Shown: positions 6,249 to 49,158 of the stretch, piece after piece | Layout: each line of letters starts with the position of its first letter | Position numbering within the stretch: position 1 is the first letter of the stretch | Origin: Rhodamnia argentea | Lineage: Eukaryota > Streptophyta > Magnoliopsida > Myrtales > Myrtaceae | DNA: 64,000 nt | Assembly: GCF_020921035.1 (NCBI RefSeq) | Contig: NC_063153.1 | Location: forward strand, 7,068,001-7,132,000 | Direction: 5' to 3' | The notes under the pieces: generated by a model | The model's database searches: none | Told to the model about the DNA's origin: nothing | Seen by the model: only the letters and a program-made list of their open reading frames with translations | Made by a program: the position numbers and the translations under genes

Positions 6249-7742
6249 ATGGGAGGACCCAACGGTATCTCTCTCTCTCTCTCTCTCTGGTGGATGTATG
6301 AATGCACTTCAATTTGCTGAAGGAATGTCCGTGAAAGACAGACTGATGATAAATCATACCCATGATGCGATTTGCTTGTTTTATTCAGTTATTATATGAC
6401 GCGGATGTTTTACCCTGCTGTTTTTCATGTATATCTTGTTCATTTGACCGGATGAAGAGAGGCAAGGATGGATTTTGTCTGTTTTGGGATTTGGGATTCC
6501 CTTTGCAGCCAAAACAGAGCCTGATTCTCCAGATCTCCTCTCTTTTAACCATGATTTGCTATCCTTATCTTCCTTGTCGTAGCAGATGCAGCAGGAGACT
6601 CCTTCCTCTCCGAAAGATCGGCCAAGGTCTTTGTTGCCGGCCACCGCGGTCTTGTGGGCTCCGCCATCGTGCGGAAGCTCCGGGACCTGGGGTTTGCCAA
6701 TCTGGTCCTTCGCACCCACGCCGAGCTCGACCTCACGCGCCAGTCAGATGTCGAGGACTTCTTCGCCTCCGAGAAGCCGCGGTTTGTGATCCTTGCTGCT
6801 GCTAAGGTCGGTGGCATCCATGCCAATAACACGTACCCAGCGGATTTCATTGCCATCAATCTTCAGATACAGACCAATGTCATTGACTCTGCCCATCGCC
6901 ATGGCGTCAAGAAGCTCCTGTTCTTGGGATCTTCTTGCATTTACCCAAAATTTGCACCCCAGCCGATTATGGAAGATGCTTTGCTAACTGCCCCCCTCGA
7001 GCCCACTAATGAATGGTAATGCCACTAGTCCTCTTCTAACCAAATTTGGGTTTTTTATTCAAGTGCTATCCCGTAAGTCGACCTTAATTTTACATGTGGC
7101 GTCTACCTTATTTCGTACTTATCTTGTTTTTCATTAGTAACTTGGGATCTGTCATGATATGCTGGTTTGTCAATGGTGCTCTGGTCTTTGATTTGGAACT
7201 GTCTGTTTATATTTAGGTATGCGATCGCGAAAATTGCTGGGATTAAAATGTGTCAGGCTTATCGGATTCAGTACAGTTGGGATGCGATATCGGGAATGCC
7301 CACAAATTTGTATGGACCGAATGACAATTTTCATCCTGAGAATTCCCATGTCTTGCCAGCATTAATGAGGAGGTTTCACGAGGCGAAGGTGAGGGGAGCA
7401 AAGGAGGTGGTGGTGTGGGGTACGGGGAGTCCATTGAGGGAGTTTTTGCATGTGGATGATTTAGCAGATGCAGTCGTTTTTTTGATGGAGAAGTATAGTG
7501 GGTTGGGGCACGTAAATGTTGGGAGTGGGAAGGAGGTGACTATCAAGGAATTGGCTGAGTTGGTGAAGGAGGTTGTGGGGTTCGAGGGTCAGCTTGTTTG
7601 GGACTCTTCAAAGCCAGATGGGACTCCTAGGAAGCTCATGGATAGTTCAAAACTGGCAAATTTAGGTTGGACACCAAAGATTTCTCTGAAAGAGGGTCTT
7701 CGCGATACTTATAAATGGTACTTGGAGAATGTGAAGCAATGA
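6249..7742 (+). CDS. GER1: GDP-L-fucose synthase (GER type), three exons
   Basis: Makes GDP-L-fucose from GDP-4-keto-6-deoxy-mannose by epimerisation and NADPH-dependent reduction, in the cytosol, feeding cell-wall and glycoprotein fucosylation. I read exons at 6249-6264, 6586-7015 and 7217-7742, giving 323 residues (Arabidopsis GER1 is about 312). The first exon codes only five residues plus one base (MGGPN). It is chosen because its donor GTATCT and the acceptor GTAGCAG join in phase to the conserved [15 protein letters not shown] stretch; without it the second exon has no ATG before an upstream stop. Visible marks are the Rossmann motif GHRGLVG (about 24-30), catalytic Ser121 in GSSCIYPK, and Tyr150/Lys154 in YAIAK. 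The Ser-Tyr spacing of 29 matches the bacterial enzyme. [16 protein letters not shown] and [12 protein letters not shown] are also typical. Nothing looks broken. Only the tiny first exon is inferred. GER1 and GER2 cannot be told apart here. Confidence 0.95.
6266..6289 (+). repeat. (TC)n microsatellite at the first splice donor of the fucose synthase gene
   Basis: The CT repeat begins two bases after the GT of the inferred donor, so the 5' end of intron 1 is the microsatellite itself. Confidence 0.85.
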
Positions 7743-17880: not shown

Positions 17881-19992
17881 CGGAGAAAAGAAAAAGAAAA
17901 AGAAAAAGAAAATTAAAAAAAGGAAAAGAGAAAATATAAAAATATAATTAAAATTTTCGATTTTTAAAAAAAACGAAAAATGAAAAGAAAAAGCTGAAAA
18001 ATAAAAAACTATTAAAAGGCGTTTGTGGAGCAAAATCAAACCTAACTTTTCACGTCAAACGATAAAAAATATATTCTAGTATATTTTCAAATTTTAACCT
18101 AATGCCGGAAAATAAAGTTATTTTCTTGAAAAAAGGACTTGCAGGAAAACATTTTTCGAAAGCCTTTCATTTTTTCTTGAAACAAACGGAGTTTAAATTT
18201 CTAATAAAAGAGAAAGTAAACTCCAAGAATTTAAACTCCAAGTGTATCTTAATGATTGACGACGGATTTACCTATCTCCACCGAAAGCGATTCGCCGTAA
18301 TTTTGTGTTCTGTCACGGTAGAATAAATTTAATTAGGAGGAAAATGACTTTTTTCCAACTTGTGTTGCTTGTCACGACTATTTTGTCGGGGATTGCAACA
18401 AACAACTCGTGTGGAACGGGTTTTTTTCAAAAGAAGTCCCCTCAGATTCGAGTCATTACATCGAAATCACATGCGTATTGAAGCATCCCAAGTGATTATA
18501 TCATGCGTTCAAGACGAATATATTGACAAAACAATCGTGGGTCATCTCAATTCCTAAGTTATAATAACAACATAATGATTCCAACATTGAAAATTCTCGT
18601 GTGCCAATCATAGATGTCTTTAAAAAAAAAAAAAAAAACTATAAATTGGGACAGATGGTCAAACCCCTCCTTTTGATTTCATGATTTTGTCTGCCGGGGT
18701 TCTTCAAATTAGCGACATTTGTCCCGGTTTGCGACTAGAAGTGACACGGCCCCCACTCCCCACTCTTGATGTGAATTTCCAAAGGCATGACGTGATTCGA
18801 TCTTATATGCAGTGTACGAAGTTAAGTTCGGGCCTCAATTTTTCAATGGAATCAACGTGGTCTAAAAAGCCTCGAGTGACAATGTAATCAAACCTACCCG
18901 ACCAGGTCTGGCATGAAATTTCCGACTTGATGATTCGGTCGGTACCGATCGTCGCGCGTGTCCTGACCGTTGTTTACTTCAAACAGTGCCTGAGTTTGAT
19001 GAACTTCAATTCTCGGTTTCACGAATAAACTTGCAAAGGCCGATGTTGCTCAGCTCCACAAGTCATCGCTGTTGCCTAGCCCGCCCTCTCTCAAGTCGGA
19101 TCTTTAACATGGTTACGGGTTTAGCCAGATCTGGCACCTCCTAGAGTGGAGGCTCGACAGTCGGTCTCCGTGGTCTCCAAATGGCCGTCAAGCTCGAAGA
19201 AGCTGAACGTCTGTTGCTTTGAGGCTAACGAAATCTTGCACCACGACGAGCTCAGCTAGATAACATCTCGAGGTGACGACTCTTTCATGGTCGTCGACCT
19301 AGTCTGATATGGCCGGCCCGCCCCCGGTGAAGATCAACTCCTTGAATCCAAAATTGAGTTGTGGTTCCTTTCTCGATTGTCGATAGTCTCTGCACAAAGA
19401 TTGCGATTATCTGTTTTGGATTTCTCTCGAAATTTAGTGCAATCAAGAGCATTGGGTCATTCCTATAAAATTCCAAAATTTAGTAAATTTTAGCGAGCGC
19501 ATTTGAAATTTACCTAATGCTAGAACACGCGAGCTCAGCTCAGGCCGGCCCCAATATGTTTGATATCGCATAAGACCTCTCGGCTTCAATCCATTCATGG
19601 AACGCCTCTGTCTGCGTAGCAATATGTTATTGGCGAATAGATGTGATTAGTCAGTAAGCTTGACCATATATTGAGCCTATAATTTTTTTTCACTTAGGGC
19701 TGCCTAAAATTTAAACACATAAGCATGTCATATAACATTAAGAAGAGGGTTGAGTCGAGGCAAGCCCCGGGTCAAGAATGAAATTTGTTTATCTAAGCTC
19801 GCACATTTATGCTTGTCGGGTCCAGCGAGAATGATCAGATCTACTTACCAAACATCACAGTATGATCGAGTCCAATTCGAAGCATTTTCGTGCCTGGTAA
19901 ACTCGGCCGACCAAGCGCCGAACGCTAGCCATTGTCTTGATGGGTCTTGCATCATCCGACAATGACCGTGTCCCGGCTTCGGGACAAGGTTC

Positions 19993-20654
19993 TTGTTGGG
20001 ACTTTGGTATTCAAATCCCATAAGAAGATAAATGAGAAATAAAGGATGGAGCAAAAATCCGAACAAACATGTTTGCTTGATTTTTTCTTTGAGCAAACAT
20101 GTTCTTTTGAAAGATGTCTATTCGATTTCGTGACTTGTGTCTATTCGATTTCGTGACTCTTCATTCTATTAGAAGATGTTTGTTCGATTTCGTGACTCTT
20201 CATTCTATTGGAAGATGTCCATTCGGTTTCGTAACTCTTCATTCGTTTGAAAGAGAACCTCTCGGATTAGTAACTCTTCGTTCTCAACCTTTAGTTCGTG
20301 ACTCTTTGCATCATTGTCTATAAATAAAGCATTGACCGTCGCATAAAAAAACAACTGTCATTTTCGTCATTTATACTTCATTATTAATCATTTGTGCGAT
20401 TATTCTACGAAGTGTGCTCGAAGGTTTCTTTTGAAGAAGTATCGCTTTAGAGAAAAAGACGATCCGTTCTATCCTGGGAAGCAATTGTCTAAGAACCTTG
20501 GGTATTGATTAAGGGGACAAATTTGTCTCAAGGACACAACGTCATTTCGTTGGGCTCGGATCATTCCTCTACATTTAGATTACTTATTTACGTTTGGTTT
20601 CAGGTTTGTCGATCAACGTTATTCTATATATACGAACACTTATAGGCGACTACA
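19993..20654 (+). repeat. Copia-1 left LTR
   Basis: Contains about four tandem ~39-bp units around TTCGATTTCGTGACTCTTCA, followed by a TATAAATAAAG promoter-like box near 20318. It is about 40 bp shorter than the right LTR, one unit fewer. A weak primer-site match (GGTATTAG) lies ~20 bases inside. Confidence 0.9.
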
Positions 20655-20744
20655 ATCTTAAGACAAATTTCTTCCGGTATTAGTTGCTTGGTTCGTATAG
20701 TTGCCTTTTTTTTTATATATTAAATTCTACTTTCGTATTAGAAA

Positions 20745-23700
20745 ATGACATCAGCATCGATAACGCCTATTACATTGGTTCTGACTCATGGAGAAAAGTC
20801 AGAAAAGTTCAATGGAACTGATTTCAAGAGATGGCAACAGAAGATATTGTTCTATCTCACGACTTTGAATCTGGCAAAGTTCCTCAATGAGGATGCTCCT
20901 AAGTTGGATGAAGGAGAGGTAGATAAGGAAAGGTTTGCTGCAGTAGATGTGTGAAAGCATTCCGACTTCCCGTGTCGCAATTACATCCTTAATGGTCTCA
21001 ACAATTCCCTCTACAATGTTTATAGTCCGCTAAAAACGACTAAAGAATTATGGAAAAGTCTTGACAAAAAGTACAAAACAGAAGATGTCGGGTTGAAGAA
21101 ATTCATCATCACAAATTTCTGGACTTCAAGATGGTAGATCATAAAACTCTCTTGAGTCAAGTTCGAGAACTTCAAGTGATCATGCATGACATTCATGCTA
21201 AATGTATGGTTTTAAGTGAATCATTCCAAGTGGCTGCTTTCATTGAAATTTACTACCGTCTTGAAAAGATTTCAATAATTATCTCAAACATAAGAGAAAA
21301 GAGTTATCACTTGAAGATTTAATTATTCGATTAAGGATAGAGGAAGACAATAGACTTTCTGAAAAAAAAAAAAAGTTGTCAGAAATCCGGAGGTCTCAAG
21401 GGCCAATGTTGTTGAAGAAGGTTCGAAACCCAACAAGAAGAGGAAAAAGTACGGAGAGGGATCCACCCAAGGCTTGAAAAGGTTCATTGGCAAATGCCAC
21501 AATTATGGAAAGTCTGGATATCGTGCCAAAGACTTTAGAGCCAAGAAAAGACATAAGACTCGGACTAATGTGGTGGAACAGATTTCCAATGGCTTTGATA
21601 ATATCAATCTTACTGCTATGATATCTGAATGCAACATGGTAGGAAACCCCAAAGAATGATGGATTGATACTGGAGCAACTCGTCATATCTGCGCCAACAA
21701 GTCGATGTTCTCATCCTATACGCTTGTGGGAGGTGATGAAAAACTCTACCTGGGTAATTCATCGACCTCTAAAGTTGAAAGTCTTGGAAAGGTTGCTCTG
21801 AAGATGATATTTGGAAAAATAATGATGCTAAATAATGTGCTATATGTGCTAAATATACGTAAGAATTTAGTGTCCGGATCTCTCCTCGGCAATAATGGTT
21901 TCAAGTTGGTGTTTGTATTTGATAAGTTTGTACTCTCCAAAAATGAGATGTATATAAGAAAGGGTTACTATAGTGATGGTATTCTCAAGATGAATGTAAT
22001 GACTATTGTATCCAATGATGATATGAATAAAATTGTTTCTGTTTATGTGCTTGAGTCTCCTAATATATGGCATGCTAGATTATGACATGTTAATTATAAG
22101 TCAATAAAGAAACTAATGAATATGGGGTTATTGCCAAAGTTTGACTGTCTAAGTGAAAAGTGCCAAGTGTGTGTTGAATCTAAGTTTGCTAAGCCTCCAT
22201 TTTATTCTATAGATAATAGAATCACAAAACCTTTAGATTTAATATATACCGACATATGTGATATGAAAGCATTACCGTTAAGGGGTGGTAAGAAATACTT
22301 TATCACATTTATAGATGACTGTTCGAGGTATTGTTATGTTTATTTGCTTAGTCGCAAAGATGAGGCTATGAATGCTTTTAGAACTTATAAGTCTGAAATT
22401 GAAACTCAGTTAAATAAGAAAATTAAAATGATCAGAAGTGATAGAGGAGGTGAATATGAATTTCCTTTGAGGAACAGGTATCATTCACCAAATCACCTCT
22501 CCTTATACACCACAAGCTAATAGAGTGGCGGAAAGGAAAAATCGATCCTTAAAGGAAACAATGAATGCATTGTTGAATAGTTCCGGTTTACCACGGAATT
22601 TGTGGGGAGAAGCTGTTTTGACGGCGAATTTTATTTTAAATAGAGTACCCCACAAAAAGACACAACAAACTCCTTATGAGAAATGGAAAGGCAGAATGCC
22701 TAATTTGAAATATCTCAAAGTGTGGGGGTGTTTGGCTAATGTTGCGATTCCTAAGCCTAAAACGGTTAAGATAGGACCGAAAACTGTTGATTGTGTCTTT
22801 GTTGGATATGCTCTTAATAGTAGTGCATATCGATTTCTTGTTCATAAATCTGAGGTCCTAGATATATATGTTAATACGATCATTAAGTCAAGGGACGCTT
22901 CGTTCTTTGAAAATATATTTCCGTATAACACAGTATATGAGCCAATTGACAATGATAAGAATCCTCAGAATACTACATCCGCAAACGATCCTATGGAGGA
23001 TGAATTTCGACGTTGTAAAAGACAAATGACTTCTACGTCTTTTGGACCCGATTTTCTAACATATTTATTAGAGAATGAGCCTCGGACCTTTAAAAAGGTC
23101 GTGACATCCCCAGAAGCCTCATTTTAGAAAGAAGCTATCAATAGTGAAGTTGAATCCATCTTGTCAAACCGTATTTGAGAATTGGTTGACCTCTCTCCTG
23201 GTAATAAATCTCTACAATGTAAGTAGATTTTCAAGAAGAAGATGAAAACGGACAGAACTATTGATAAGTATAAGGCTAGACTTGTAGTAAAAGACTACAA
23301 GTAACGAGAAGGTCTTGATTATTTTGACACCTATTCACGTGTTACAAGAATTACATCTATAAGGATGCTAATTGCCATAGTGGCGGTGTATAGCTTGAAA
23401 TCCATCAAATGGACGTAAAAACGGCTTTCTTAAATGGGAATCCGGAAGAAAAAATATATTTGGAACAACTTGAAGGGTTCATTGTTCGGGGACACGAAAA
23501 AAAAGTTTGTCGACTTGTCAAGTCTCTTTATGGCTTGAAATAAGCACCAAAACAATAGCATGCCAAATTCGATCAAGTCATGTTGTCGAATGGTTTTAAA
23601 ATTAATGAGTGTGACAAATGTGTATATGTTAAAAACACTCATAAGGGCTTTGTTATTTTGTGCTTATATGTAGACGATATGCTAATAATTGGCAGCAGCA

Positions 23701-24610
23701 GTGAGATTGTTAAGGCAATGAAACGTATGCTCACAAGTAAATTTGACATGAAAAACATAGGGGTCGCAGATGTTATTTTGAGAATTAAAATCCATAAAAA
23801 ACATCCGAAGGATTAGCACTATCACAGTCTTACTATATAAAAAAGATTCTTGTAAAGTGCAAGAATCTAGACATTGTACTAGTAAAGAATCCAATAGATG
23901 TTAATCTACATCTTTCAAAGAATACTGGTGAAAGCAAGACTCAAAATGAGTATGCTAGTATACTAGGCAGTTTAATGTATGTCATGAATTGTACTAGGCC
24001 GGACATAGCTTGTGCTGTGAGAAAGCTAAGTCGATTACGGTTAGTCTAAATGAAAATTATTGGAGAGCTATGAAACGTTTATTTGGACTATTTGAAGCAT
24101 ACTGAAAATTATGCTTTGCATTACACGTACTATCCTGCGGTACTTGAAGGATACCGTGATGCAAATTGGATAACCGGCACAAGAGACACAAAATCCACAA
24201 GTAGGTATGTGTTTACACTTGGTGGGGGGCAGTGTCTTGGAAATAATACAAACAAACTTGTATTGCAAGATCTACTATGTAAGCAGAATTTATTGCTTTA
24301 GATAAGGCTAGTGAATAAGTAGAGCGGCTTCGAAATTTCTTAGAAGCCATTCCTAATTGGCCTAAACCAATGCCAGCTGTGTGTATTCATTGTGATAGTC
24401 AAACTGCAATAGGCAATGCAAGGAATGTCATGTATGATGGTAAGTCTCGACATATAAGTCGAAGACACGATCTTGTAAGAAACTACTCTCTAGTGGAATT
24501 ATCACGATTGACTATGTGAAGTCAAAAGATAATATTGCGGATCCATTAACAAAATATCTAACTAGAAAGATGGTTGTGAAAACATCAAGGGGAATGGGTT
24601 TAAGGCCTAA
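20745..24610 (+). pseudogene. Copia-1 gag-pol remnant
   Basis: Gag begins at 20745 (EKFNGTDFKRWQQKILFYL) and hits a TGA near 20952, where the family usually has Trp. The zinc knuckle near 21488 (CHNYGKSGYRAKDF) has lost Cys and His ligands. Protease carries WIDTGATRHIC at about 21660. Integrase spans about 22220-22800, with TDICDMKALP, FIDDCSRY, SDRGGEYEF and VAERKNRSLKETMN. Reverse transcriptase has KARLVVKDYK near 23270 and the active-site box YVDDM near 23670. RNase H remnants run to about 24540. Several stops fall where copia proteins have Trp or Gln. Confidence 0.9.
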
Positions 24611-25172
24611 AATATAAGTCTTCATAGCGGAAACCCTATCTAATTGATTGGAGATCCTATGATCTAGGTTTAAGGGACAACTAAGTTATGCGGGCGATGT
24701 AGAGTCTTGTCAACTCTTAACCATTCTTGTGTGAAGATAGTGCTAATATATGGAGGTTAAGCGTAAGCTTTTAATGATTCTAAATCGGGTATGCGATATA
24801 CCACATATTCAGAAATCACCTATGTGAGTGTGAAGTGAGGGCCGCTTTCGTGAGAATTGGAAAGGCCGAATTCTCTAAAGCACTCATGAAACCAAGTGGT
24901 GTTCATGGCCAAAATGAACACAACAATGAGAACCAACTTTGCTCGAGAGATAATTGTGTGATTTCTATTGTCTAGGCTTACACTAAAGGTCGACGGTTCA
25001 AGGACATCAAGTCTATCGATTGACCGAGTAAGTCCGATAGGTCTTACTAGGGAAAGTTTAAAATCTCATACTACTTATTCCAATGCAATTGTCTCTCATT
25101 GAATAATCGCATACTACATCTCATGCATTTACGAAGAGTCATGATAACCGAACTTCTCATTCATGTAGGGGA

Positions 25173-25874
25173 TTGTTGGGACTTTGGTCTTCAAATCCCA
25201 TAAGAAGATAAATGAGAAGTGAAGGATGAAGCAAAAATCCGAACAAACATGTTTGTTTGATTTTTTCTTTGAACAAATATGTTCTTTTGAAAGATGTCTA
25301 TTCGATTTCGTGACTCTTAATTCTTTTAGAAGATGTTTATTCGATTTCGTGACTCATGTTTATTCGATTTCGTGACTCTTCATTCTATTGAAAGATGTTT
25401 GTTCGATTTCGTGACTCTTCATTCTATTGGAAGATGTCCATTCGGTTTCGTAACTCTTCATTTGTTTGAAAGAGAACTGTTCGGATTAGTGACTCTTCGT
25501 TCTCAACTTTTAGTTTGTGACTCTTCGCATCATTGTTTATAAATAAAGCATTGACCGTCGCATGAAAAAACAATTGCCATTTTCGTCATTCATACTTCAT
25601 TATTCATCATTTGTGCGATTATTCTACGAAGTGCGTTCGAAGGTTTCTTATGAAGAAGTACAACTTTAGAGAAAAAGGCGATCTGTTCTTATCTTGGGAG
25701 GCAATTGTCCAAGAACCTTAGGTACCGATTGAGGGGACAAATTTGTCTTAAGAATACAACGTCATTTCGTTGGGCTCGAATTATTCTTCTACATTCAGAT
25801 TACTCATTTGCGTTTGGTTTCATATTTTTCAATCAATATTATTCTATATTTATGAATACTTATAGGGGATTACA
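25173..25874 (+). repeat. Copia-1 right LTR
   Basis: Same sequence as the left LTR with scattered substitutions and one extra ~39-bp subrepeat unit, so 702 bp. Ends TACA, then the target duplication GGTTC. Confidence 0.9.
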
Positions 25875-26673
25875 GGTTCGTGTGAGAAACTCTCTCCCAA
25901 CTGAGGAGTGGCCCATGGAAATTGGAGCAGCAACATCGGAGGGCACAAGAGGAAAGGGGGAGAGAGAGAAAGAGAGAAAAAGAGGAGAGAGGTTGCTTGC
26001 GCAAATCTAGCTTAATGGCCCCTCTGTCTCTCTCTCTCTCTCCAAGTTTGCTTTCCTTGGCCTCGCTATGTCCTGAGACACACGGACAATAACTCTCTCT
26101 CTCTCTCTCGCACGAACGCACGGACACACAAAACCGAGGAACCCAATTTCTCTCTCATGTCTTCTCTGCGGAAATTCAAAAGGAAAAATCTTCCTCTTGA
26201 CGCTTGTTTCCACACCAGACAAAAGAAGCCATCGCCGCGAAGACGCCCTTTCTCTTGCCGAAGAAGAAATTTGGAGAGAGAGAGAGAGAGGGGAGATTCG
26301 TACAGATCTCGTGAGCTACTGCTGATGAGAGAGCTCTGAGATGGAGTCTTTTCTCGGAACTCCACTGCACTCGAGAAAACAAGGCCCCATCTTTGCGTCG
26401 TTCGCCATTAGAGAACGAAATCTGTACAATGTCGGGTTGGCCGAGCCGGGGATGGTCGTGGCGGCGGAGGCAACGGCGGAAGGCGGCGGCGACAATCTTG
26501 GGTGTGTTTCCAGTATCTTTCTCTTCTCTTTCCTAGGCTATGCTTGTGAAAATGCAGCAATGCAAATTTTCAGTCAGGCCTAGTTCTCGAGAGTTTTTCG
26601 AGACGCACGTGACTCTCTCTCTCTCTCTCTCTCTCTCCCTAGACTAATGACTGATGATGATAGTGGTGGTGAC

Positions 26674-26697
26674 GGTGATATTGGCGGGACGGCTCAA
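26674..26697 (+). promoter_or_regulatory. Candidate miR171 target-mimic site (3-nt bulge)
   Basis: Reads GTGATATTGGC, then GGG (26686-26688), then ACGGCTCAA. Without the GGG it is the exact complement of positions 1-20 of the miR171 form that starts TTGAGCCGTGCC. The extra GGG falls between the bases pairing with miRNA positions 9 and 10, where the slicer cuts. A three-base bulge there is the known design of endogenous target mimics such as IPS1 for miR399: they bind the miRNA but resist cleavage. miR171 normally targets HAM/SCL6 GRAS mRNAs. The flanks do not read as GRAS protein, and no partner arm for a MIR171 hairpin is visible. That the site is transcribed is inference. Confidence 0.65.
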
Positions 26698-28509
26698 TCT
26701 GCAACTCTGCTAATCGCTTCTTCTTTCTTTGTTTCTTCTTCCTATGTATTGATCCTAATCCTGTAAGTGGGGAATTTCCATTTTCGATTAAGAATGTTAT
26801 CAGGAGAGGCCATTTCTCTCTGTCTCTCTCATGGGTCCATGGAAACTACATTGTCATGTTCTTGAAAGAGCCTCAGACGATCAATGCAAAAGAAGAAAGA
26901 CTGAGGCCCCGTTTCCTCCATTTTGAGGAAGAAACTGCAATGAGTTCTGCATATTAGGCACAGCAAAGCTGATCTAAGCAGACGGATGAGTTTGCATTCC
27001 CTTCTAATTTAGCTTAGCATTCGCCCAGTTGAGTGCACGAATTGCAATCGAATGACATCCCTTTGAAAATCCAATCAAAAGTACGATGAAAATCATATTT
27101 TTTTAAGCTCCCTTTCCAATCTATCCATAGAATAGGATAGAACAGAATGGTTATGTACATGTAATTTCTCTGCGAATTGCAATCATATGTGCAAAATGAA
27201 ACTCCATTAAGGGTCAAAAGGAAAGGAAAGGACACTACTTTAAAATTGTTGCTTAATTGCTGATATGGGCTGTGGACATAGATGTCATCTGGTGCTTTGC
27301 TTTGCTTTGCTTTGGCTGTGGTCTAATTTCCTGTTCTCCCTTTTCCTGGGGGAACGTGGAGCTTTTTGGGACAGTGCTTGTTTTTGTTTAGTGAAATGGT
27401 TGTCCTCTTCGAATTGCTAATCTGGGTGGACAGCAGTGCAAGGCTATAATAGCATTGTTCATTGGAGTATTTTATATGATATGATGTACGAAGCTTGGAC
27501 TTTGCTGCTGCTGCTGCTGGTTGCTGCTTGCATCGTTTGGGGGCATTTCTTTCCCTTTTGGTTCTCTCTTATCCTCTCGTGTTGAGCCTCCTTTATGACC
27601 CGCTTGCTAAAACAAGCTTGCCCTCGTCGCGTCGTGAATCGAATCAATCGCAATCTCATGCGACCAGACGAGCTTCGGATAGTAAATTTTTTACTTATGT
27701 GGGGGCGTTTTTTTGCCTTCCCTCGGATTTAGACATGTAAAGATGGGTCATAAATCCCTTTATTAACTTATATACGATGAGCTGAGTTGTTATATGATTT
27801 AGACATATTTAATAAATTGGTCATCAATAAGTTTAAACATAATTTGCGTGCTAAATGATGTTAAATGGGTTGTACATGAGATTACAACTTATTTCGACTC
27901 AACTCACTTCTATGACTCTCTCTTTGTTCTCTTTCGCCCTCGCTTGTCTTGCGCTCATTCACTCTATACTTCCACTTTAATTTAGTTGTGAGTTTTCCTA
28001 AATTAGGTTAAACATGAAAGTGTTTTAGGAATGCATTGCATGGAAATGGAACAAAACGGGTCAAAGGTTCTATTTTGGTCAAACCATTTTTGACTCGATC
28101 CAAACTTGACCCGATCCATCCGTTTGACGGATTTAATTTTACCTTGGTAATTGGCGCATGGCATTATGCAATGGAAATAGGATCTTGTTTGCGCTCTTGG
28201 ACACTTTTTAGTTTGTCTAGTGAGGAAATATTCGTATTCAAAGCATTAATTATTCATGAAACGGTTAAGACTTGTTTTGCAGAAAATGTGGCATTTCTAA
28301 AAAATGTTCTTCAAAAAATCGTTTTTTAGGAAAATGATGATATTTTTTTATGTTTGGCTGAAATCTTAAAACGAACCGGAAAATATTTTCTACCAAATGG
28401 TGAGGAAAATCAATTTTCACTGTATATGCCTTTTAATAATTTTTTTAAAAAATTGATTTTTGAATTATTTCTTTTATCTTTTTTCTCTTTTGTTTTTCGT
28501 TTATCTTTT

Positions 28510-28620: not shown

Positions 28621-28996
28621 TGACTGCGAGTGAAGTACGTATGGAGGAGCTCGAACAAGTTGACGATGGCGAAATGGTGGTGGGACTGGGTTCGTAGAGA
28701 GGTGAGGCTGTTGGGCGGCGACGGAGGTCGCTACGAGAAAGGAGAGGCGGCGGCGGCGGCGGAGATGATGCTGCTGTGGGGGGGATTCAACAGCCGACTC
28801 TCGCCCAACCCAACGCCTTCGTCTCGCAGTCGTTTCTTGCCCTCGCCATCGAAGCTTGCGGTTACTCTTTTCTCCATCCTCCAATCTCCTTCTCTGGTAT
28901 AGCCTTCGTTCTCGCTAGGGTTTACTGGAAGTGAAACTTTTCTTTGATCGATCGACGCGATGATCTAATTGAGCCACTTATCGAACTGTTATTAGA

Positions 28997-29296
28997 ATGG
29001 CAATCGAAAGTCGTGTGAGGAGAGAGTACGGGGATGGAGGAAGAGGGAGAGAGAAAGGAAGATTTTCTTCGTTTCAGAAAGTTACTCGCGAGAGGAACAA
29101 ACGCAGCCAAAGTCCGCGACGCCGGTCAGCAGTCGACGATAACGAGGAAGTGAACGAAGATCTGAGCCTGAAGATCGTCGAGAAAGCGCTCTCGGCGCGC
29201 GCGGTGAAGATTGCTTCCACTCCCCCGAGCGTCGTCTTGTCGGAGGAGGATGGTTGGTGGCGGCGTTGTTGTTTTGCAGAAGAACGATGTGGTTAA
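28997..29296 (+). CDS. Unrecognised charged ORF (99 codons)
   Basis: Starts MAIESRVRREYGDGGRGRE and is rich in Arg, Glu, Lys and Ser, including NKRSQSPRRRS and DNEEVNEDLSLKIVEKALS, the latter possibly a short acidic helix. A GCTAGGGTTTA word about 80 bases upstream resembles the telo-box leaders of plant genes. I recognise no family. It could be a first exon whose rest is missing, or chance in a GC-rich repeat neighbourhood. No downstream exon was identified. Confidence 0.2.
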   Translation: MAIESRVRREYGDGGRGREKGRFSSFQKVTRERNKRSQSPRRRSAVDDNEEVNEDLSLKIVEKALSARAVKIASTPPSVVLSEEDGWWRRCCFAEERCG

Positions 29297-29676
29297 GGAG
29301 GAAAAAGTGCAGAATAAGGAGTGGAAGAAGAAGAAGAAGAATAGGGGCCGAGAAAATCAAAAAGCAATTGTGAGGTTTTTTGTTTTTGTTTTTTTTTTTT
29401 CGTTTTTCTAATTATTGATTGATTTCCTATTTGCATGCCGAGGCAGGCAACGGCGGGCAGCGGTGGCGCGGAGGTGGCGAGCATTACAATAGCAGTCACC
29501 TATGTTCGAGAAATTTATTCGGCAATCCGATGGGGAAATTTATTAGGACACTAACGTTACTTTATAAAATAACCAATATTAATCGAAAGAAAATATAACA
29601 TTTCAATTTGTAATTATTCAAAAAAATTGTAATTAATTTCACAAAAATGGTATATGTGATGAATTTTGCTACCCAT

Positions 29677-31646: not shown

Positions 31647-34600
31647 TCACAAAGTTAAAATGGCTACACAAGCAGCCGTTGTTCTTCTGCGTTTCGAACC
31701 CCAGCAAACCTCTAACTTGGCAATCTTCTTTTTGGTTCCCAGATATCCTTGGCAGTTTTGAGATCCACAGTGGCACTCCACCTCGGGACCAAATTGTACA
31801 AATCTTTACAAAGAGAGAAAAGTTAAGAAGCCATTGCAGGGGCATTTCACTTATTCAGTTTAAGTGGAGCAAGGTAAAAGTATATCAATGTATGTTTATT
31901 TCAAGGCTGCACAAGCATAAAACATGGATAATACTTTTTTTCAATCATTAAAGCCTCACTAACCTGTAATCATATGTTAGCGGCTCACCAACTTTTATTG
32001 ATCGAGCCGCAAAAACACCCACCCTTGTTTCCCCCTCAACTTGCCTGAAAAAGTCAATTTATTTGAGTCCCATCATTCAAAGATTGGGAAACGGTATCTC
32101 CATCACAGAGAGAAGCCATTACCAATAGGAAAGACGATAAAACCAAACATCTAGCAAGAAGTTAACAACCGTTACGTCTCATCAGATGAACCAGAGGCAA
32201 GAAAGGATCACTGAAAGTGAGGAGGAGACTTTGGACTGATTGGGGAAACTAACAGCTATATGAAAATGAGATTTTATTGATGCCTTTCCTCAGGCCAAGT
32301 GGCGCCTGCAATTTTTTAGTTTGTCTATACTAGAAAGCTCATGCCAGAAATATTGTTTTGAGAGTACTAAATAATGCATGTTAGTCTCACTTTATACAAG
32401 AAGCCCCAAAGAAGACAGTTGCTGGTGTAACATTTGATATACTTAACACATAATAAAATAGTCAACTACGACATTTGGAATGTTAAATCACTAGGAGGAC
32501 CGAAAATGCATCATATATCATTCTGTAGAGATTAGTGTGCGGCTCCCAGTAGACAGACCCGGTAAAATTGAATCTAAAAAATCCTAGCCAGGAAAATTGT
32601 TTGATTTGACAAAAGCACAGGGGGAACTTTTTAATGGTAGCATATATATCGAACAGCAACTTATAACATTTCTTTCCTAGAAATGGCAAAACAGCAATAC
32701 AATCATGAAGTGTAATTGACCAAACTAACCACTTTTCCAGGAAACAGTTAGGATCGCAGCTGTGGTTAAGAAAGCGAGATGCATTTCCCTTGAATGTTGC
32801 ATCAATTGTGAAGTCCTTTCGTACCTCACACATGTAGAAATTCTTCATGCCTCCGAATTTCATATCCCAAAGCCTTTTTTCACATTGAGCATCATCGATA
32901 ACTGAAGCAGAGACAGTGACTGACGAAGTAAGTAAATTGAAGAACATATAAACAATCAGCTATTTTTTTTTTTTATCACCAAAATAATCAGCTATTTAAG
33001 AGCAGACAAATCAGAGAACTCATTGTGAGTGAATAATAAAAGACCAACCGGATAAATGACTGATGATATTACAAAGTTCAAGAAAATCTACCTAACCCAA
33101 TATGTTTAGTCTTGAAGGAAAAGAATGACCAAGTTCAATATCCCATAAAGGCCAATTTAATTCATGAAAAGGTTTTCAGTTTTTCCTTCAAGTGAAAATG
33201 AAAACAGTTTTTTTTCTTTCTATTTTTGGTTTTCTGTTTTCTTTAAAGACATGGCCCGGTTACTGAAATTTTCAATAGGCACGAAAACCTTGAAAACGTA
33301 TGTGTTTTCAAATTTCTGTTTCAATCAAGTTACACTAAAAAAAATACATGTTTTAATTTTAACATAAATTGTTAAACCAAAATTAATTCTCTGAACAGCT
33401 GTTTTGAAACGTACAGGATGCTTCGCTGATCTTCAGAGACCTATGCAAATTGACATAACAAAACCCCTGAAACGGAAGCTTTCCCTATAAACATGGCAAT
33501 GGCGAGTCTGTGATAATGTTGAAGCACTTCTCTCTATCACGAGTTGATCGAGTTGATTGACACATTGGCAACTCAACTCCGCAAAAATGAAGGGTCTCTC
33601 TCTCTAAGTTCGGAGTTGGTTACACATTTTGTGTTGAGATGTTCTGTTTTACGCAATGATTAATTGTACTTGAATGGAATAAACTGTTTTCCTTTACATT
33701 TTGAGATAAGAAGTTGCAGTTGCCATGGAGAGGACCAACTCAGTCCAGAATGAAACGTGGGAATCTTGTTTTGACTGAAAATTATGAAAACAGGAAAAAG
33801 GTGTTTTCTTTTCTCCAGACCATACATAAAATAAACCTATGGCGTTATCTATTGAAAATATTTCCAAAACCATCCCAAACACATTATCGTGCTGTTCTGT
33901 CATTTCTCAAATGAGAATGAAAATGAAAACTTTGAAACCTTCCATATACCAAACAGGCCATAAAATCTTCATTAACAACAATGTGAAACAACAAAGAGAC
34001 ATATACTCAATCTGGCATAGACGTTGCATAAAACTCACCAATATAAAGACAAGACAAACATCAATGATCTCGACTACCGACAATCCAGGAAAGAGAAAAG
34101 ACGACAAAAACACCAATAATATTGGCCGCAGACATTGTTTACCTTCTCCGATATATTCAACGATAAATTCCCCTTTATTTATGGATTCAGCTGCCTCTAC
34201 TCCCCAACCACATAATTCTGTCTGAGATGGAAAATAATACTTTCCATTTAAGTCATCAAATACAGAACTTCAATTAATAATGAAAGTACTATCGTAAAAT
34301 ACTGTATCTTCTCGTTCTTAGAAACGATATACAAGACAGATAAATTAATTCGGGGTAACTGAAGATGCTATCTTACCTTAACGATCTTTATCTTCTTGTC
34401 CTTCCGAAATGGCCTGTTGTTGCAATTTTCTGGGCAACGACAAGCCTTTGAGCAGCTTATGCATTGGACTCTATCAGAAAAATTATATATGCATCATTTG
34501 CTTGGACAGAATGTAATAAAAGAATGCTATACAAGTAATGGATAAAGCATAGCATCAGAATAGAAATTTCACGAACACAGTTTTGAGTCACATTCACACC

Positions 34601-40256: not shown

Positions 40257-42182
40257 CTAACCACACTTGCCCAAGTTGAACCTGTCAGTCTGGTGAGCTA
40301 GGAGGAGCCAAACGAGAGTAATGAACTCCCCACCTCTCCTCAGCTGCTGTGCATGGGTATCAAAATCACAGTTATATGCAGCATAACACAGCATCTCTGT
40401 CCACACACTGCTAATGATTTCCCATTTTTTATCTCTGTGCATCATCAATTTCACTGAGAGTTCCTGTGCATCAGGCAATATGAGCCACCCTAGTTCAACC
40501 ACAGGATCTTTTCGCTTTCGGGCCGCACCGTCGTGGGGTTGATCCGTATGTAGGAATCGGCAGGCTGAATGTTCGTCCTTCATTTCCGGTGACAACTTGA
40601 TGACCTCGGATAAATGCTTATAGATAACGTGCCCAGAAGGGACTGATAGCATTTCGGGGAGATTAACCAGGAGATGCATCATGTATTCTGAGACCCATTT
40701 GCTCATGTCCTTAAGTGAAGCTTCTCCGCTTGTGTCGGCCTCATCTAGATGGTGACAAATGCTGGTGGCAACGTGCCATATGGCGATACTCCTGCCGAAC
40801 TCCGTACGGATGCTCCATTGCAGTTCTTGGCAGCAATCGTGCCTCTCGAGCGCCCATTCACCTCTTTTAGTGAAGGGCTTAATGCCTCGTTGACGTTCCA
40901 CTGCCTTTATCTCATGGAGTACAAGTTCTTGCAGCTCTTTAGGAACTTTTTCCTTGTATGCCAGGAATCTGTACTTCTTCCATTCTTCTTCGAGGCAACA
41001 GCATTTCACGATCATAGATATTAAGCTGCTCGAATCAGGCTTGAGGCAAAAACGAAGGAGATTGAACTGAGGCAAGCGATTCGACCATCTTTGCTTTGCC
41101 AGACAGAATTGGACTAGAAAGTGAAGGAGTCTTTCCATTCGCAGTTGATGATGGTGTCCGATTGCCCATATTATTGCCCTGTCTGAGAAGAGCAGTTTCA
41201 AGTCCGAATACAGTTCAAGGATCAAGGCTATAGCCAACACCGAAAAAGTGAAGGTGACATTCTTGCGATGCAAGAAGTCTTTGCTGAACATCACTGCAAA
41301 TCCGGAAAAGGTCAATACAATGCACAAAAAAGTAAGAAAACGGAGCATAAAACCCAGCTTAGTGTAGATAATGGGCGTTTTTGTATAGAGGGCATCGTAC
41401 ATGAGTCCTAGTTCGATCTCGGTAATCTTGAAAACCTCAATAGGTGAATAATCCTCTATCGATAACGAGGGAAAGGAGATGTACAATGGGTGGTAGATCC
41501 AATTTTTCAAATGTGGTTTTATGCGGTCGAAGCGGTAAAATGCTTTTAGAATTAGATCTGCTCCATGAATATCTTGAGGTAAGTTGCTAAACATCACATG
41601 GAAGGCATTCTCTTCATCGATCCTTGAAATGGCCATGCCCGCCTCCTGGTCAAGAGCAGATTTCAAAGCCCATGCCCTCTCGCCGTATTTGATGAACCCG
41701 GCCAGAAACATTGGCAAGGTTAGGAATGAGAGGCTAGTGTAAGTCCAGCACCTGATGAGAATCCAAATAACTAGACCCGCTTGGGCAACTGTTTCAACTA
41801 TTTCTCTCGCCCCCAACTGATTATCTTGAATCGAATAGGCAGTAATGGTGTCGGGGCTTCCTAGGTGCAGCAAGAGAATTGGGGCAAGAAGGGCCTTAAG
41901 TGAAGTGTTTGTATCGGGTAAACTAGGGTCGCCGACGCTAATGTCGCTAAGCTTACCGATACCAACAGTAGCGACCCAGCCTGCCATTAAGTAGCTCGAC
42001 CAAACGGTGAGTCTGATCAAGAATCCCGTGATGTAACTCCGGCGACGGCCAAAGGCCAAAAGGATGATTTGGAAGGTAAGGCTCAATAGTACCAAAGTCT
42101 GAATGTCCCACGCATTCCAGAATCTCTTGGCCTGCTTGATAATTGGGTCCCAGAACATGTCCATCTTCTTTCCCTCTTTCAA
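40257..42182 (-). CDS. DUF4220/DUF594 membrane protein, array gene 1
   Basis: A single open frame of 641 residues, the normal size for this plant-only family, whose function is not established. DUF4220 occupies roughly residues 50-390 and DUF594 the last ~60. Membrane-like segments are visible near residues 28-45, 52-75, 96-108, 132-146 and 150-165, with another pair about 280-330 (FLTFLCIVLTFSGFAVMF and VTFTFSVLAIALILELY). The family signature LLAPILLLHLG-SPDTITAYS spans about 98-117. DUF594 shows LCYAAYNC near 598, LRRGGEF near 614 and VWLLLAHQ near 624. Arg-rich GRRRSY follows the first membrane segment, suggesting a cytosolic loop. ATG 42180-42182 is the first; Met7 is an alternative. Intact. 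Same strand as, and paralogous to, the next two genes. A 5' UTR intron is possible but not shown. Confidence 0.92.
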   Translation of the reverse strand: MKEGKKMDMFWDPIIKQAKRFWNAWDIQTLVLLSLTFQIILLAFGRRRSYITGFLIRLTVWSSYLMAGWVATVGIGKLSDISVGDPSLPDTNTSLKALLAPILLLHLGSPDTITAYSIQDNQLGAREIVETVAQAGLVIWILIRCWTYTSLSFLTLPMFLAGFIKYGERAWALKSALDQEAGMAISRIDEENAFHVMFSNLPQDIHGADLILKAFYRFDRIKPHLKNWIYHPLYISFPSLSIEDYSPIEVFKITEIELGLMYDALYTKTPIIYTKLGFMLRFLTFLCIVLTFSGFAVMFSKDFLHRKNVTFTFSVLAIALILELYSDLKLLFSDRAIIWAIGHHHQLRMERLLHFLVQFCLAKQRWSNRLPQFNLLRFCLKPDSSSLISMIVKCCCLEEEWKKYRFLAYKEKVPKELQELVLHEIKAVERQRGIKPFTKRGEWALERHDCCQELQWSIRTEFGRSIAIWHVATSICHHLDEADTSGEASLKDMSKWVSEYMMHLLVNLPEMLSVPSGHVIYKHLSEVIKLSPEMKDEHSACRFLHTDQPHDGAARKRKDPVVELGWLILPDAQELSVKLMMHRDKKWEIISSVWTEMLCYAAYNCDFDTHAQQLRRGGEFITLVWLLLAHQTDRFNLGKCG

Positions 42183-42650
42183 GATGGCAGAAATCTGAAC
42201 AAGTACATATCATTTTGAGAATAATCACATCTTTTTTCAATGTTGATTTCGTCAAAAGGAACCCCAATTCAGGTGAACAGAAGATAATCTAACAAAAGCA
42301 TTAGTCTTACACTAAAATTGAACAGCATGAGCAAGTAAAATGCTCCAAGATAATTGAACCAGGAAATCGATAACAGAGAACGAAGCATTGGAGTGCACCT
42401 TACCTGGCCGGGAAACTATTTGTTGGGCTATATACTGGAACTACAAAAGCGGAAATACAGAGCATTTGGAAGGCTGCCCTTCTTGTTCTTTTTTTTTTTT
42501 TTTTTGTTGGTAAATTTTGAGAAGCATCAGATAGGTTTCTGTCAGCTGTTACATGAGCACAGGACAGGACGAGCGGTTGAGAGACATCTTATATATATGT
42601 TCCTTAAGGGTCTCCCAAACAACGAAAACCACAGGTGAACTTCACAGAAG

Positions 42651-44510: not shown

Positions 44511-46436
44511 TCAAATCTCTTGACTCATGAGTTTCATAGAATGAAACTTGTCCGTCCTGTGTGCTAGCAGAAGCCACACATGTGTTAGAATGTCTCCGCC
44601 TTGCCTCAAAAGCTTCGCATGGTTATAAATCCGGCAATTATAAGCTGTGTAACACACGATCTCCACCCAAACGCTGCTTATAAGCTTCCATGGATCATTC
44701 ATCTTATTCAGCAGGCCTGCGAGTCTTTGCGCCTCCTCAAGGACATGCCACTTTTTGAAGATTATATCGCCCATGCCAGGCTCTGAGTCAAATTCTTGCA
44801 AATGGTCGGCCGATAACTTTTCCAAGGCGCTGTCTCTGTTGCCTGAGATTGAAACCTCCAGAAATTTCTTGACCTTGGAGTAAGCACGCTGAAAGGTGAT
44901 CTCATAGGTGGTGAGCGACAATACATAAGGCCGTATTGCAAGGAGGTACATCATGTAATCCGACAGTAGCTTGCTTCCCAAGCAATTCTTCGTGTCCTGA
45001 AAATTCAAGTGATAGCAAATATCTGTTGCGATGTGCCACGTGATGATGCTTCTGTCGAATGCCATCTCGATGCTCCATCCTAGTTCATCCCATGAATTGT
45101 GAAGCTCGAGTGTCCATCGGCCTCTATTAGTGAAGGGTTTTACACCTCTTTTCCTCTCCAAATCCTTTATGCCTTCTAGGAGCAGTTCTTTCAGATTCGT
45201 GTTGATTGCTTCGCGAGTGGATTTCCAAGATCTCTTGAACTGCTCCTCCTGGCCAACAAATCGAAGGACTTTGATGCACTTTGACCATTTCTTATCCAGG
45301 CAAAATTCTAACATATTGAACTGCCCGATCATACCTGTGGATCTCTTCTTTTTCATGGACATTTTCACGAGAAAAGGTAGAAGAGTTGACACCATCGGCT
45401 TCCTGCAATGCTCAACGATCCTCACTATTGCCCAATCTGAGAATGGCAGAATCAAGATTTGGTAAATTTCCAAAACTGTCACCCCGATCAGCAGAGCATA
45501 TGTATAGGCCACATACATGTCAAGCAAGAAAGAATTTTGAAAAATTCCTGCAAACCCACTTAAGGTCGATACCAAACTGAAGAAACTAATCAACCGCAAC
45601 ATGATGCCGAGCCTAGTATAAAGAACTGGACCCTTAGTATAGAGGACGTCGTACATAAATCCTAGCTCGATGGCAGTTGTCAAATAGGCATTCTCCGCAT
45701 TGTATTCTTCTATCGATGTCCAGGGGTGCGACATGAACATGGGGTGGTATAGCCAGTTCTCAAGGTGGGGCTTCAAAGTGTTGAAGCGGTAATAAGCCTT
45801 CACGAAGATATCTAAGCCTGGGATGTTGGTGGGTAGGTCTTGGATCAACTTGGGGATGTTCTTTTCTTCATCAATGTTCTTCAATGTTATACTCATGTTT
45901 TGGCTGTACACCGATTTGAGAGCCCGAATCGTTTCTCCATACTTAATCGTTCCAGCAACAAAGATTGGGAAGTACAATGAAGCAGCGGCTGAGGTGGCCC
46001 AACAACGGATAAGGATCCAAACCACGAAACCTACGGAGAAGACAAAGTTTAGTACTTTTCTTATCCCTAGCCGGTCGTCTTCAACCGAGTACGCGGTTAT
46101 GCTATCTGGGTTCCCGAGCTGCATCAGAAGCAACGGCGCTAAGAGTGCCTCTAGCTCTGTTTCGTGTTTGGGTTTTTCCGGATCATGGACACGGATTACT
46201 GTGAGCTTGCTGAGAGCTAGGGTGGCGACATAAGTCGCAAGCAAGTAGGAGGACCATACAACAAACCTTATCACTAGGCCAGTCATATATCTCCTCCGGC
46301 CGCCAAGGATGGCCAGAGTGATTTGAAACACGAGGCCAGACAGTACTAGTAGTTGGATGCTCCAAGCTTCCCAAAGATCCATCAGCCGTGGAAAGAATTT
46401 CGTAATTACTTGGGGAACCCAGCCGAAAAAGTTCAT
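44511..46436 (-). CDS. DUF4220/DUF594 membrane protein, array gene 2
   Basis: 641 residues, the same length as gene 1 and collinear with it: the signature GNPDSITAYS falls at 108-117 in both. Marks are WSIQLLVLSGLVFQI (first membrane segment, about 25-40), GGRRRY, SSYLLATYVATLALSKL, IKYGETIRALKS, and paired hydrophobic segments about 280-330. The DUF594 end has VWVEIVCYTAYNC, LRQGGDILTHVWLLLAH and a short tail. It shares more wording with gene 3 than with gene 1 (ATLALSKLT, GNPDSITAYSVED, VLYTK/RLGIMLR), suggesting 2 and 3 are the younger pair. Start ATG 46434-46436 is the first in frame and matches the N-terminal length of gene 1. No breaks. Cellular role unknown. Confidence 0.92.
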   Translation of the reverse strand: MNFFGWVPQVITKFFPRLMDLWEAWSIQLLVLSGLVFQITLAILGGRRRYMTGLVIRFVVWSSYLLATYVATLALSKLTVIRVHDPEKPKHETELEALLAPLLLMQLGNPDSITAYSVEDDRLGIRKVLNFVFSVGFVVWILIRCWATSAAASLYFPIFVAGTIKYGETIRALKSVYSQNMSITLKNIDEEKNIPKLIQDLPTNIPGLDIFVKAYYRFNTLKPHLENWLYHPMFMSHPWTSIEEYNAENAYLTTAIELGFMYDVLYTKGPVLYTRLGIMLRLISFFSLVSTLSGFAGIFQNSFLLDMYVAYTYALLIGVTVLEIYQILILPFSDWAIVRIVEHCRKPMVSTLLPFLVKMSMKKKRSTGMIGQFNMLEFCLDKKWSKCIKVLRFVGQEEQFKRSWKSTREAINTNLKELLLEGIKDLERKRGVKPFTNRGRWTLELHNSWDELGWSIEMAFDRSIITWHIATDICYHLNFQDTKNCLGSKLLSDYMMYLLAIRPYVLSLTTYEITFQRAYSKVKKFLEVSISGNRDSALEKLSADHLQEFDSEPGMGDIIFKKWHVLEEAQRLAGLLNKMNDPWKLISSVWVEIVCYTAYNCRIYNHAKLLRQGGDILTHVWLLLAHRTDKFHSMKLMSQEI

Positions 46437-49158
46437 GGCAACGACTTCCTTCTTGTGTTGCTCTCTTTAAAATGAAAGATAAGTTGCTGGAAAAATAAAA
46501 GTAGACAAGGGAGTCAAACCTTAATCAACTCTAAGATTTAGTGTGAAACAGCAGCATTTGCGAGTGAGATAAAGAATTCAATTTTGTGGATAACTTAATC
46601 AACAGGTAATGAATCTTGTTCTTCAATAGTAATTCAGATTAATTTCACTACTTTTGATCAATAAACTATAGTTAGTGTTGTGGATTGCTCATTGAACATT
46701 AGAAATGTCGGTCGGGGTCGGTTCATTTCGTTGTGGTCATAGACTTCTGAAGTCTAAGCTTCTACCCCAGATTCCGAATTTCTAACAGAAAACTATCCCT
46801 GACATGCAATGCATTCAAATGATACATGTGATAATCATGAGCAATCCAGATCTCCATCATCTTCCACATTCGGTATGATTTTTCTGTGTATTCGATTTCT
46901 CTTTGCAATTTTGTTTTCCATAAAGAAACTGATGATAGACATGTCTTGCAGGTTCATAGCTCAATATTACCCATCATCGAATCTTGGGAGAAGAATTTTA
47001 AACTCTTGTCACCTGTTCGGTAATGTCTTATGCATGGTGCATCGTTAGAGCATGTTAAAATGTGCATATTTACCCGTCAATAACACAAAATTTTTCATGC
47101 AGATTCGAAAACCCGAATGTCGAAAGCTCGGCTTTTGATCTAGCCTTGCGGCAGTTCTCGTCGTAACTTTCAACATGCAGATAGGAGGCCAACAACTGAA
47201 ACAATGGCCTGTTTAATTCGACATTCCAGAACAAAAGCAAGAATTGAGCCAGCTAGAGCACTGACCTCTCAGCGAAGCGATGCTGTACCGATATGGAACA
47301 AAAAATGCTGTCCGAAATCCTTAGATCGAAAGCTGTTCAGAGAATTGAGACCCTGCTTTCATTTCCAGAGAGCAAAGAACACTTCCATGTAAAACATTCT
47401 TTTATAGCATAAGATTGCTTAAAGTGTTCATGAGCACGTGCATGAGAACAAAAAGGACCAAAGAATAACAGAATAGATTATGTACTTGTGACTTTCCCTT
47501 TTCAACATTTCGGCACAAGTTCATTCGGATTTTTGCTGCTTTACCGATCATAGAAGTAACCTCTTAGTCCTTTTCCATTATTCTAACAACACTTTCGGCG
47601 GACACGTGGTTCTCCTCGTCCAGCTATACTGAAGCATCGGTCGCAATTTTCTGCTCCGTTCATCACTAAGCTTTCCCAATTATTAGTAGCTAGGCTCCGT
47701 TTGTTTCACGGAAAATGAGTGATTTGGCTAAAAATGATTGCAGACCCCCACACCACCGAGCCTCCGCCCCCACGCCAACATCACCACTGTAGCCGAACTG
47801 ACATTGATGCCCTTGCCTCCGGCTCCCATCACTATTTGTGGCAAGCTTAATTGTGTCGTAATGATCATGCGAGCTCATGATCACTGCGGACTGTGCACAG
47901 ATCGGCCTAGTGCTCATAAGAGCCACCGCAGGCCTCGCAACCTCCGTAGCAAAGCTCAGCCATGGCCGCAAGAGCTCTGTTACATAGCTTTGCCTTGGTT
48001 TCGAGAACAAGTCCTAGAAAAAAACATAGATGAAAAGTTATCGAAATTATAAAATAATTTAAACTCATGGCCCTAGAGTCCCCTGGGCTTTCATTTGTGT
48101 CTGTGTTGTCTTCAAATAAATTCCTAGAACAGCACATAGGTGTATTTTCTGCGGAAGTGTAGGAGAAAGCCAAAGAATAGGAACATGCACGATCCATTTG
48201 GTTTTACAGGGTGTTAGGATAATTGTCCAACATCTTGTACGACTCTGTTTCTTTCCAAAACCATGAGGCATATGACACGGACTGTCAGCTCTGAGTCCCA
48301 ACGGGCAAGTCCTCTTATAGTCGTGTATGCTTGTGAGTGTAGCTTGCTGGTGTCGTCACAGTGAGTGAGCGATGCAGAGAGAAAGATGCAACTGGTTCGA
48401 GGGAATGACGTTAGTTTGTATTGGGAGTTTAGGTTAGAATAAATATAACCTTAGAGCTTTGAAAGGAGGGTTTGCCTTCCGTGTATAAATTGGTCGGGAG
48501 CTGATGTCGTTCTTGTGATGAAGCCTTGGTAGGCCGAAACCAGTTGTGGTGCCTATATTGCTATGCTCGTCTCGTTTGATGGACCAGATGCCCGAGCTTA
48601 GCTGAGTGTGGTACGATCCGATACGGGGAAGTTATTCGCCTTATTGTTCTTAGGAACAACTATAGAAGGAAGGCTAGCCTAGAGTGTTCTCGGCTCGTTA
48701 GACGCCGCACGAGGCTAATTTCGCTGCCAAATGTGCCGGCCTGTGACACATAAGTCCAGGAGTCAGCTTCTAATGAGCCCATACAAAACCCAACTAATGA
48801 GCAGCAACTCATTATTATAGAATTACATGTCCCTTCCCCTATATTGACTGGTTTTTCTCTCTGGTCTGAAGATCCAGTCTTGAATCAGCCAGGAAAATAA
48901 GCAATCCGATGTTAGCACCATGTCTTGAGTCCTCAATCTAACCGGACATGTGAAGTGAACTCAGGACATACAAAAAGTGCTTAACCAGATTACAGGAAAT
49001 CGTTCTGCATTCGCGCTGAAGAGAGAACAGACAAAACGAAACGAAAGAAAGTCAGTTGATTGACTGCACCTTATCTAGGACAGGACAATGCATAATCCGA
49101 GCAGAAAATAAGATTTGTAAGAAGTAGTTTGATATGCAATAGCAATATGCCATCATCT
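46437..49158. other. Spacer between DUF4220 genes 2 and 3
   Basis: Upstream DNA of gene 2 and downstream DNA of gene 3. Contains the duplicate segment 47251-47599 and, from 47694, a transposon-like piece that begins CTCCGTTTGTTTCACGGAAA and continues into GC-richer DNA up to about 48000. Nothing coding is supportable between 48000 and 49158. Confidence 0.6.
47251..47599. repeat. Duplicated upstream segment, copy C (gene 2 side)
   Basis: Shares AGCTAGAGCACTGACCTCTC, ATCGAAAGCTGTT, CCATGTAAAACATTCTT, GATTGCTTAAAGTGTTCATG, GCATGAGAACAAAAA, GAAGTAACCTC and TTATTCTAACAACA with 52883-53230 in the same order. It lies about 0.8 kb upstream of gene 2. Confidence 0.85.

Follow-up and report, generated by a model that had tools for sequence, protein, structure and literature searches.

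Analysis of a 64,000-nucleotide stretch of Rhodamnia argentea DNA (hereafter the window) revealed a real, well-formed candidate decoy site for miR171, of a kind already known from other plants, in which complementarity to the microRNA is interrupted by a 3-base bulge. We tentatively read it as a miR171-binding site that would resist slicing, set in the non-coding DNA that separates a Copia-type retrotransposon from a SET-domain gene. Judged from the sequence, this reading falls just short of an even chance of being right, and this confidence refers to the biochemical reading and not to physiological function. Regulation of miR171 by decoys is already known; what is new here is the position of the candidate site beside a Copia-type element.

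The plus strand reads GGTGATATTGGC (26674-26685), GGG and ACGGCTCAA, followed by TC (Table 1). Against miR171b/c (UUGAGCCGUGCCAAUAUCACG), positions 1-20 are all paired (20/20) with the GGG bulged between positions 9 and 10, exactly as the original prediction had described, while base 26674 forms a mismatch to position 21. Against miR171a (UGAUUGAGCCGCGCCAAUAUC), 20 of the 21 positions are paired in a register where the TC (to 26699) provides two additional paired bases and GGA is bulged between positions 11 and 12. The letters used for miR171a and miR171b/c agree with those given in PMC8910752. The predicted energy of the duplex with miR171b/c is -32.6 kcal/mol, or 84% of the -38.7 kcal/mol obtained for a perfect miR171b site, and across six miR171 forms the predicted values range from 72 to 85% of the perfect site.

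Endogenous target mimics (eTMs) are described, in the excerpted text of PMC5148581, as pairing perfectly at positions 2-8, with a 3-base bulge within positions 9-12 and at most three mismatches, and the model for IPS1-type mimicry given there has its bulge between positions 10 and 11. The R. argentea site has no seed mismatch at positions 2-8 in any of the 11 listed combinations of miR171 form and register, three unpaired bases within positions 9-12 (GGG at 9/10 for miR171b, GGA at 11/12 for miR171a), and a single mismatch outside the bulge in the best register, for miR171a and miR171b each. MicroRNA-guided slicing falls between positions 10 and 11, one base off the bulge in either register. 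The match had been said to be split only at the slicing point; this is accurate to the extent that the bulge lies inside the published 9-12 range, but not to the base. Similarly, the proposed IPS1-type geometry agrees with the published mimic rules, whereas the bulge at 9/10 or 11/12 departs from the 10/11 position of IPS1, a difference that we count against the decoy reading.

Table 1. Coordinates of the candidate site and of neighboring features in the window.
Feature	Position	Strand	Basis or remark
Full-length Copia-type LTR retrotransposon	19993-25874	+	Self-comparison, domain, target duplication
LTRs of the retrotransposon	5' 19993-20654; 3' 25173-25874		
TATA-like box TATAAATA in the 3' LTR	25538-25545	+	Points towards the site
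Stretch of higher GC content with CT/GA repeats, immediately 5' of the site	26013-26639	+	Composition
Open frame of 80 codons preceding the site	26341-26583	+	No Pfam family
miR171-complementary site with 3-base bulge	26674-26697	+	Sequence and pairing
Pairing halves of the site	26675-26685 and 26689-26697		Bulge GGG at 26686-26688
Candidate splice donor CCT/GTAAGT	26763-26768	+	Crude matrix; not evidence of splicing

Chance is the main rival to the decoy reading. When 37 miRNA sequences were compared with both strands of the window, with three bases allowed to bulge out after position 9, 10 or 11, the site was the best bulged site for the whole panel (1 mismatch), and the sole other place with at most 3 mismatches was found for miR1446 (position 480, 3 mismatches). 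Simulations and shuffles never reached fewer than 3 mismatches. Among 40 order-1 Markov windows, the best value was 3 mismatches in 3, 4 in 26 and 5 in 11 of them, and 600 shuffled versions of miR171b matched the window with, at best, 4 (12 shuffles), 5 (76), 6 (357) or 7 (155) mismatches. With five miR171 forms, a 6 Mb order-3 simulation contained no site with 2 mismatches or fewer and three sites with 3, and a 3 Mb simulation with the local composition contained none with 3 mismatches or fewer.

Assuming uniform bases, 2.8e-5 sites with at most one mismatch are expected per window with the five miR171 forms and 2.1e-4 with the whole panel, so that the original assertion of a match very unlikely by chance holds for the window. 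Owing to the selection of the site from a scan of unknown extent, genome-scale expectations also matter, and here the assertion fails: a genome of 300 Mb, a size that we assume, is expected to contain 0.13 equally good sites for the five miR171 forms and 0.97 for the panel. A match without function, noticed since many windows and miRNAs were in effect scanned, is therefore a serious explanation despite the rarity at window level, with a probability somewhat below one half. The 5' half of the site ends a GAT/GGT-rich stretch, which also speaks for chance, while the placement of the bulge inside the narrow mimicry zone speaks against it, although that zone was itself part of the search.

Several searches indicate that the site does not belong to a MIR171 precursor. 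No Rfam family matched any part of the window at gathering score, and relaxing the threshold to E values up to 10 over 26200-27200 (1001 bases) returned only an unrelated lncRNA model, TCL6_1 (E 8.7). With up to 3 mismatches allowed, the window lacks any mature sequence like miR171, and for 35 miRNAs it contains neither a miRNA-like sequence (at most 3 mismatches) nor an unbulged target-like sequence (at most 4). In a scan of 25875-27800, the longest stem is a weak one of 32 pairs (26649-26741) that carries the site on one arm. Its partner arm is not miR171, and its energy of -19.7 kcal/mol is close to the shuffle mean of -19.6 kcal/mol, 90 of 200 shuffles being as good (z -0.03, 103 nt). Folding of 26500-26900, suggested originally as a check for a precursor, likewise gave a shuffle-like result over its 401 nt (z 0.39). 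Taken together, the missing Rfam match, the missing mature sequence and the shuffle-like folding lead us to reject a MIR171 gene, and they bear out the earlier observation that no partner arm of a MIR171 hairpin is visible. Two structural properties are counted against the decoy reading, namely the position of the site on an arm of the longest local stem and its ordinary openness, with a mean unpaired value of 0.40 compared to 0.39 (sd 0.13) at 40 random places.

The coding potential of the region was assessed in 22 frames at 25.6-32 kb, a subset of all frames, none of which matches a protein family above the curated cut-off; three of them show matches to unrelated families far below the cut-offs (E 0.065, 0.2 and 0.41). 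GRAS matches are absent from the frames tested around the site, consistent with the original view that the surroundings do not encode a GRAS/SCL6 protein. One frame through the site, 20 codons long, reads ILAGRLN, which looks like ILARLN, the box of HAM proteins, plus one inserted residue. This resemblance would suit a tiny relic, the site being all that is left of a decayed HAM/SCL6 coding sequence or MIR171 star arm. We consider such a relic very unlikely, given that the ILAGRLN frame is closed by stops on either side, that no GRAS match was obtained in the tested frames (this one included, though it is too short to be telling), and that the Rfam searches returned no MIR171 hairpin and the local stem is no better than shuffles. 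A GRAS pseudogene was rejected on the lack of GRAS matches in the tested frames, the ILAGRLN frame being too short to decide.

Upstream of the site lies the retrotransposon, overlooked in the original prediction, which we assign to the Copia type by its frames. It is flanked by a 5-base target duplication, GGTTC (19988-19992 and 25875-25879), and its frame 22471-23127 encodes a retroviral SH3-like domain. Self-comparison shows 25401-25874 to be repeated at 20182-20654 (89%); for the stretch up to 28300 it revealed no similarity within the window other than the LTR. In an alignment of 662 sites, 50 transitions and 9 transversions separate the two LTRs (59/662, ~9%; K2P distance 0.097), and a CGATTTCGTGACTC-type repeat makes up 39 bases of the 3' LTR that the 5' LTR lacks. 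With the rate of 1.3e-8 per site and year used in PMC5599236, the divergence corresponds to an age of about 3.7 My, and with an assumed 5e-9 to 9.7 My. The site is located 800 bases downstream of the 3' LTR, outside the element. The presence of an element ending at 25874 bears on the nature of any RNA that spans the site, and the TATA-like box in the 3' LTR, also present in the 5' LTR, may represent a candidate start of read-through transcription. Retrotransposons nearby usually attract silencing, which we count against the decoy reading. Far from the site, broken frames at 58557-62727 suggest by eye a second Copia-type element; the one tested (62176-62727) has no Pfam match.

Between the element and the site, the GC content rises to 49-52% (26000-26599), compared to 33-44% in the other 300-base steps of 24500-28399, and the CT/GA-rich stretch resembles a plant 5' leader, a resemblance only. 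Both features that had been noted upstream, the CT-rich sequence and the 80-codon frame, are real. A homologue search with this frame gave two candidates, none of them scoring, although such a search would overlook full-length relatives if the frame were a fragment of an exon. Downstream, the donor at 26763 is the best-scoring GT of 25900-27800 and among the top 3% of all GTs in the window. A second rise in GC, to 54%, occurs at 28700-29299, where the tested frames have no protein family.

The CT-rich leader and the 80-codon frame, together with splice-like acceptors at 26537 and 26643 and the donor, could alternatively mark a protein-coding gene that escaped detection, with the site in its 5' leader, its first exon or an intron, in which case the miR171 match would be incidental. 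As the 22 frames gave no family above cut-off, the 80-codon frame gave no homologue within the reach of the search, and the splice matrix is crude, such a gene appears highly improbable. With respect to the decoy reading, the leader, the TATA-like box and the splice-like signals are compatible with transcription of the site. The pattern GTGATATTGGC-NNN-ACGGCTCAA was found neither in the viral contigs nor in the prokaryote genomes searched (0 matches in each), a result that is uninformative on plants.

The window contains several other genes. Downstream of the site, the exons of the SET-domain gene are on the minus strand (32483-34269), with the SET domain in 32483-32959; the frame 33907-34269 has no Pfam match but, by eye, seems to be related. 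Three long, similar open frames, also on the minus strand (40257-42209, 44511-46466 and 49159-51255), possibly form a tandem array, the first encoding a DUF4220/DUF594 protein according to Pfam and the other two being alike by eye only. At 6555-7742, Pfam Epimerase matches in two frames define a gene that we take to be a likely GDP-L-fucose synthase. For the pentatricopeptide gene at 9.6-12.2 kb, the nearest named relative among the best 120 of 2930 matches is from Eucalyptus grandis, a member of the Myrtaceae (88%), with other named plants at 48-65%, including Melastoma, of the same order as Eucalyptus, at 62%; by this protein, the DNA is most likely that of a Myrtaceae species distinct from E. 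grandis.

MiR171 controls HAM/SCL6 factors in meristems. The sequence, the way it pairs, the absence of a MIR171 hairpin and the place of the retrotransposon are observed, and on these the following mechanism can be proposed. The plus strand would be transcribed, either from its own promoter or by read-through from the 3' LTR, and miR171 would pair with the resulting RNA to either side of the cut, next to which the 3-base bulge would lie. Binding without cleavage would then tie up miR171 in the manner of IPS1 and rice MIKKI, and HAM/SCL6 mRNA would be raised. The steps of this scheme differ in strength. Such an RNA would probably bind miR171 without being cut; transcription of the site at all is a matter of even chances; and it is rather unlikely that the site matters in the plant. 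The original reading as an endogenous target mimic is supported in part: it keeps its mimic geometry and the absence of a MIR171 hairpin, but loses part of its chance argument at genome scale. A more specific version, in which an RNA with the bulged miR171 site is made by read-through from the Copia 3' LTR, would constitute an independently evolved parallel to MIKKI in a woody eudicot, and has only a slight probability.

Mimics of miR171 and of other miRNAs provide the framework for comparison. In Arabidopsis IPS1, as here, pairing is near-perfect apart from three bases that bulge out in the cut zone, although the partner of IPS1 is miR399 and not miR171. In Lilium pumilum, lpu-eTM171a/b are endogenous target mimics of miR171 itself, acting on SCL6; their overexpression cuts miR171 by about half and that of site mutants does not, according to the excerpted text of PMC9171120. 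The poplar lncRNA MSTRG.13550.1 restored the miR171i target PcCDL1, and not SCL6, upon coexpression in Nicotiana benthamiana (excerpts of PMC9135444), and both this RNA and the entries of PeTMbase have sites found, like ours, by computed pairing. These comparisons differ in the nature of the evidence: IPS1 was transcribed and tested, the lily mimics were obtained as full-length cDNAs that were overexpressed and site-mutated in lily (PMC9171120, excerpts), and the PeTMbase and poplar sites were predicted within known lncRNA transcripts, whereas the R. argentea site, also when set against MIKKI, is known from genomic DNA alone.

The closest parallel is MIKKI of rice, a retrotransposon-derived RNA whose spliced transcript contains a miR171 site mismatched at positions 11 and 14; panicle degradome data show no cleavage signal, and overexpression lowers miR171 (PMC5599236, in the parts of the text available). 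The microRNA is the same, and here too the decoy would be the RNA of a retrotransposon locus, but the MIKKI site arises within the element through splicing, whereas ours is contiguous in the genome, lies outside the element and has a 3-base bulge. The insertion of Osr29 is dated to about 3.7 My in the same excerpts, equal to the age of the LTRs here at the same rate, which is a coincidence of number and not homology. In the excerpted literature examined, the experimentally tested natural miR171 decoys are those from lily, poplar and rice, and none of the matches listed, judged by titles and abstract openings, describes a miR171 mimic in Eucalyptus or elsewhere in the Myrtaceae. A decoy in Myrtaceae would, if true, suggest that such decoys arise repeatedly, all the more so with a retrotransposon as its driver; in that case, transcription of retrotransposons would have captured miR171 on two occasions.
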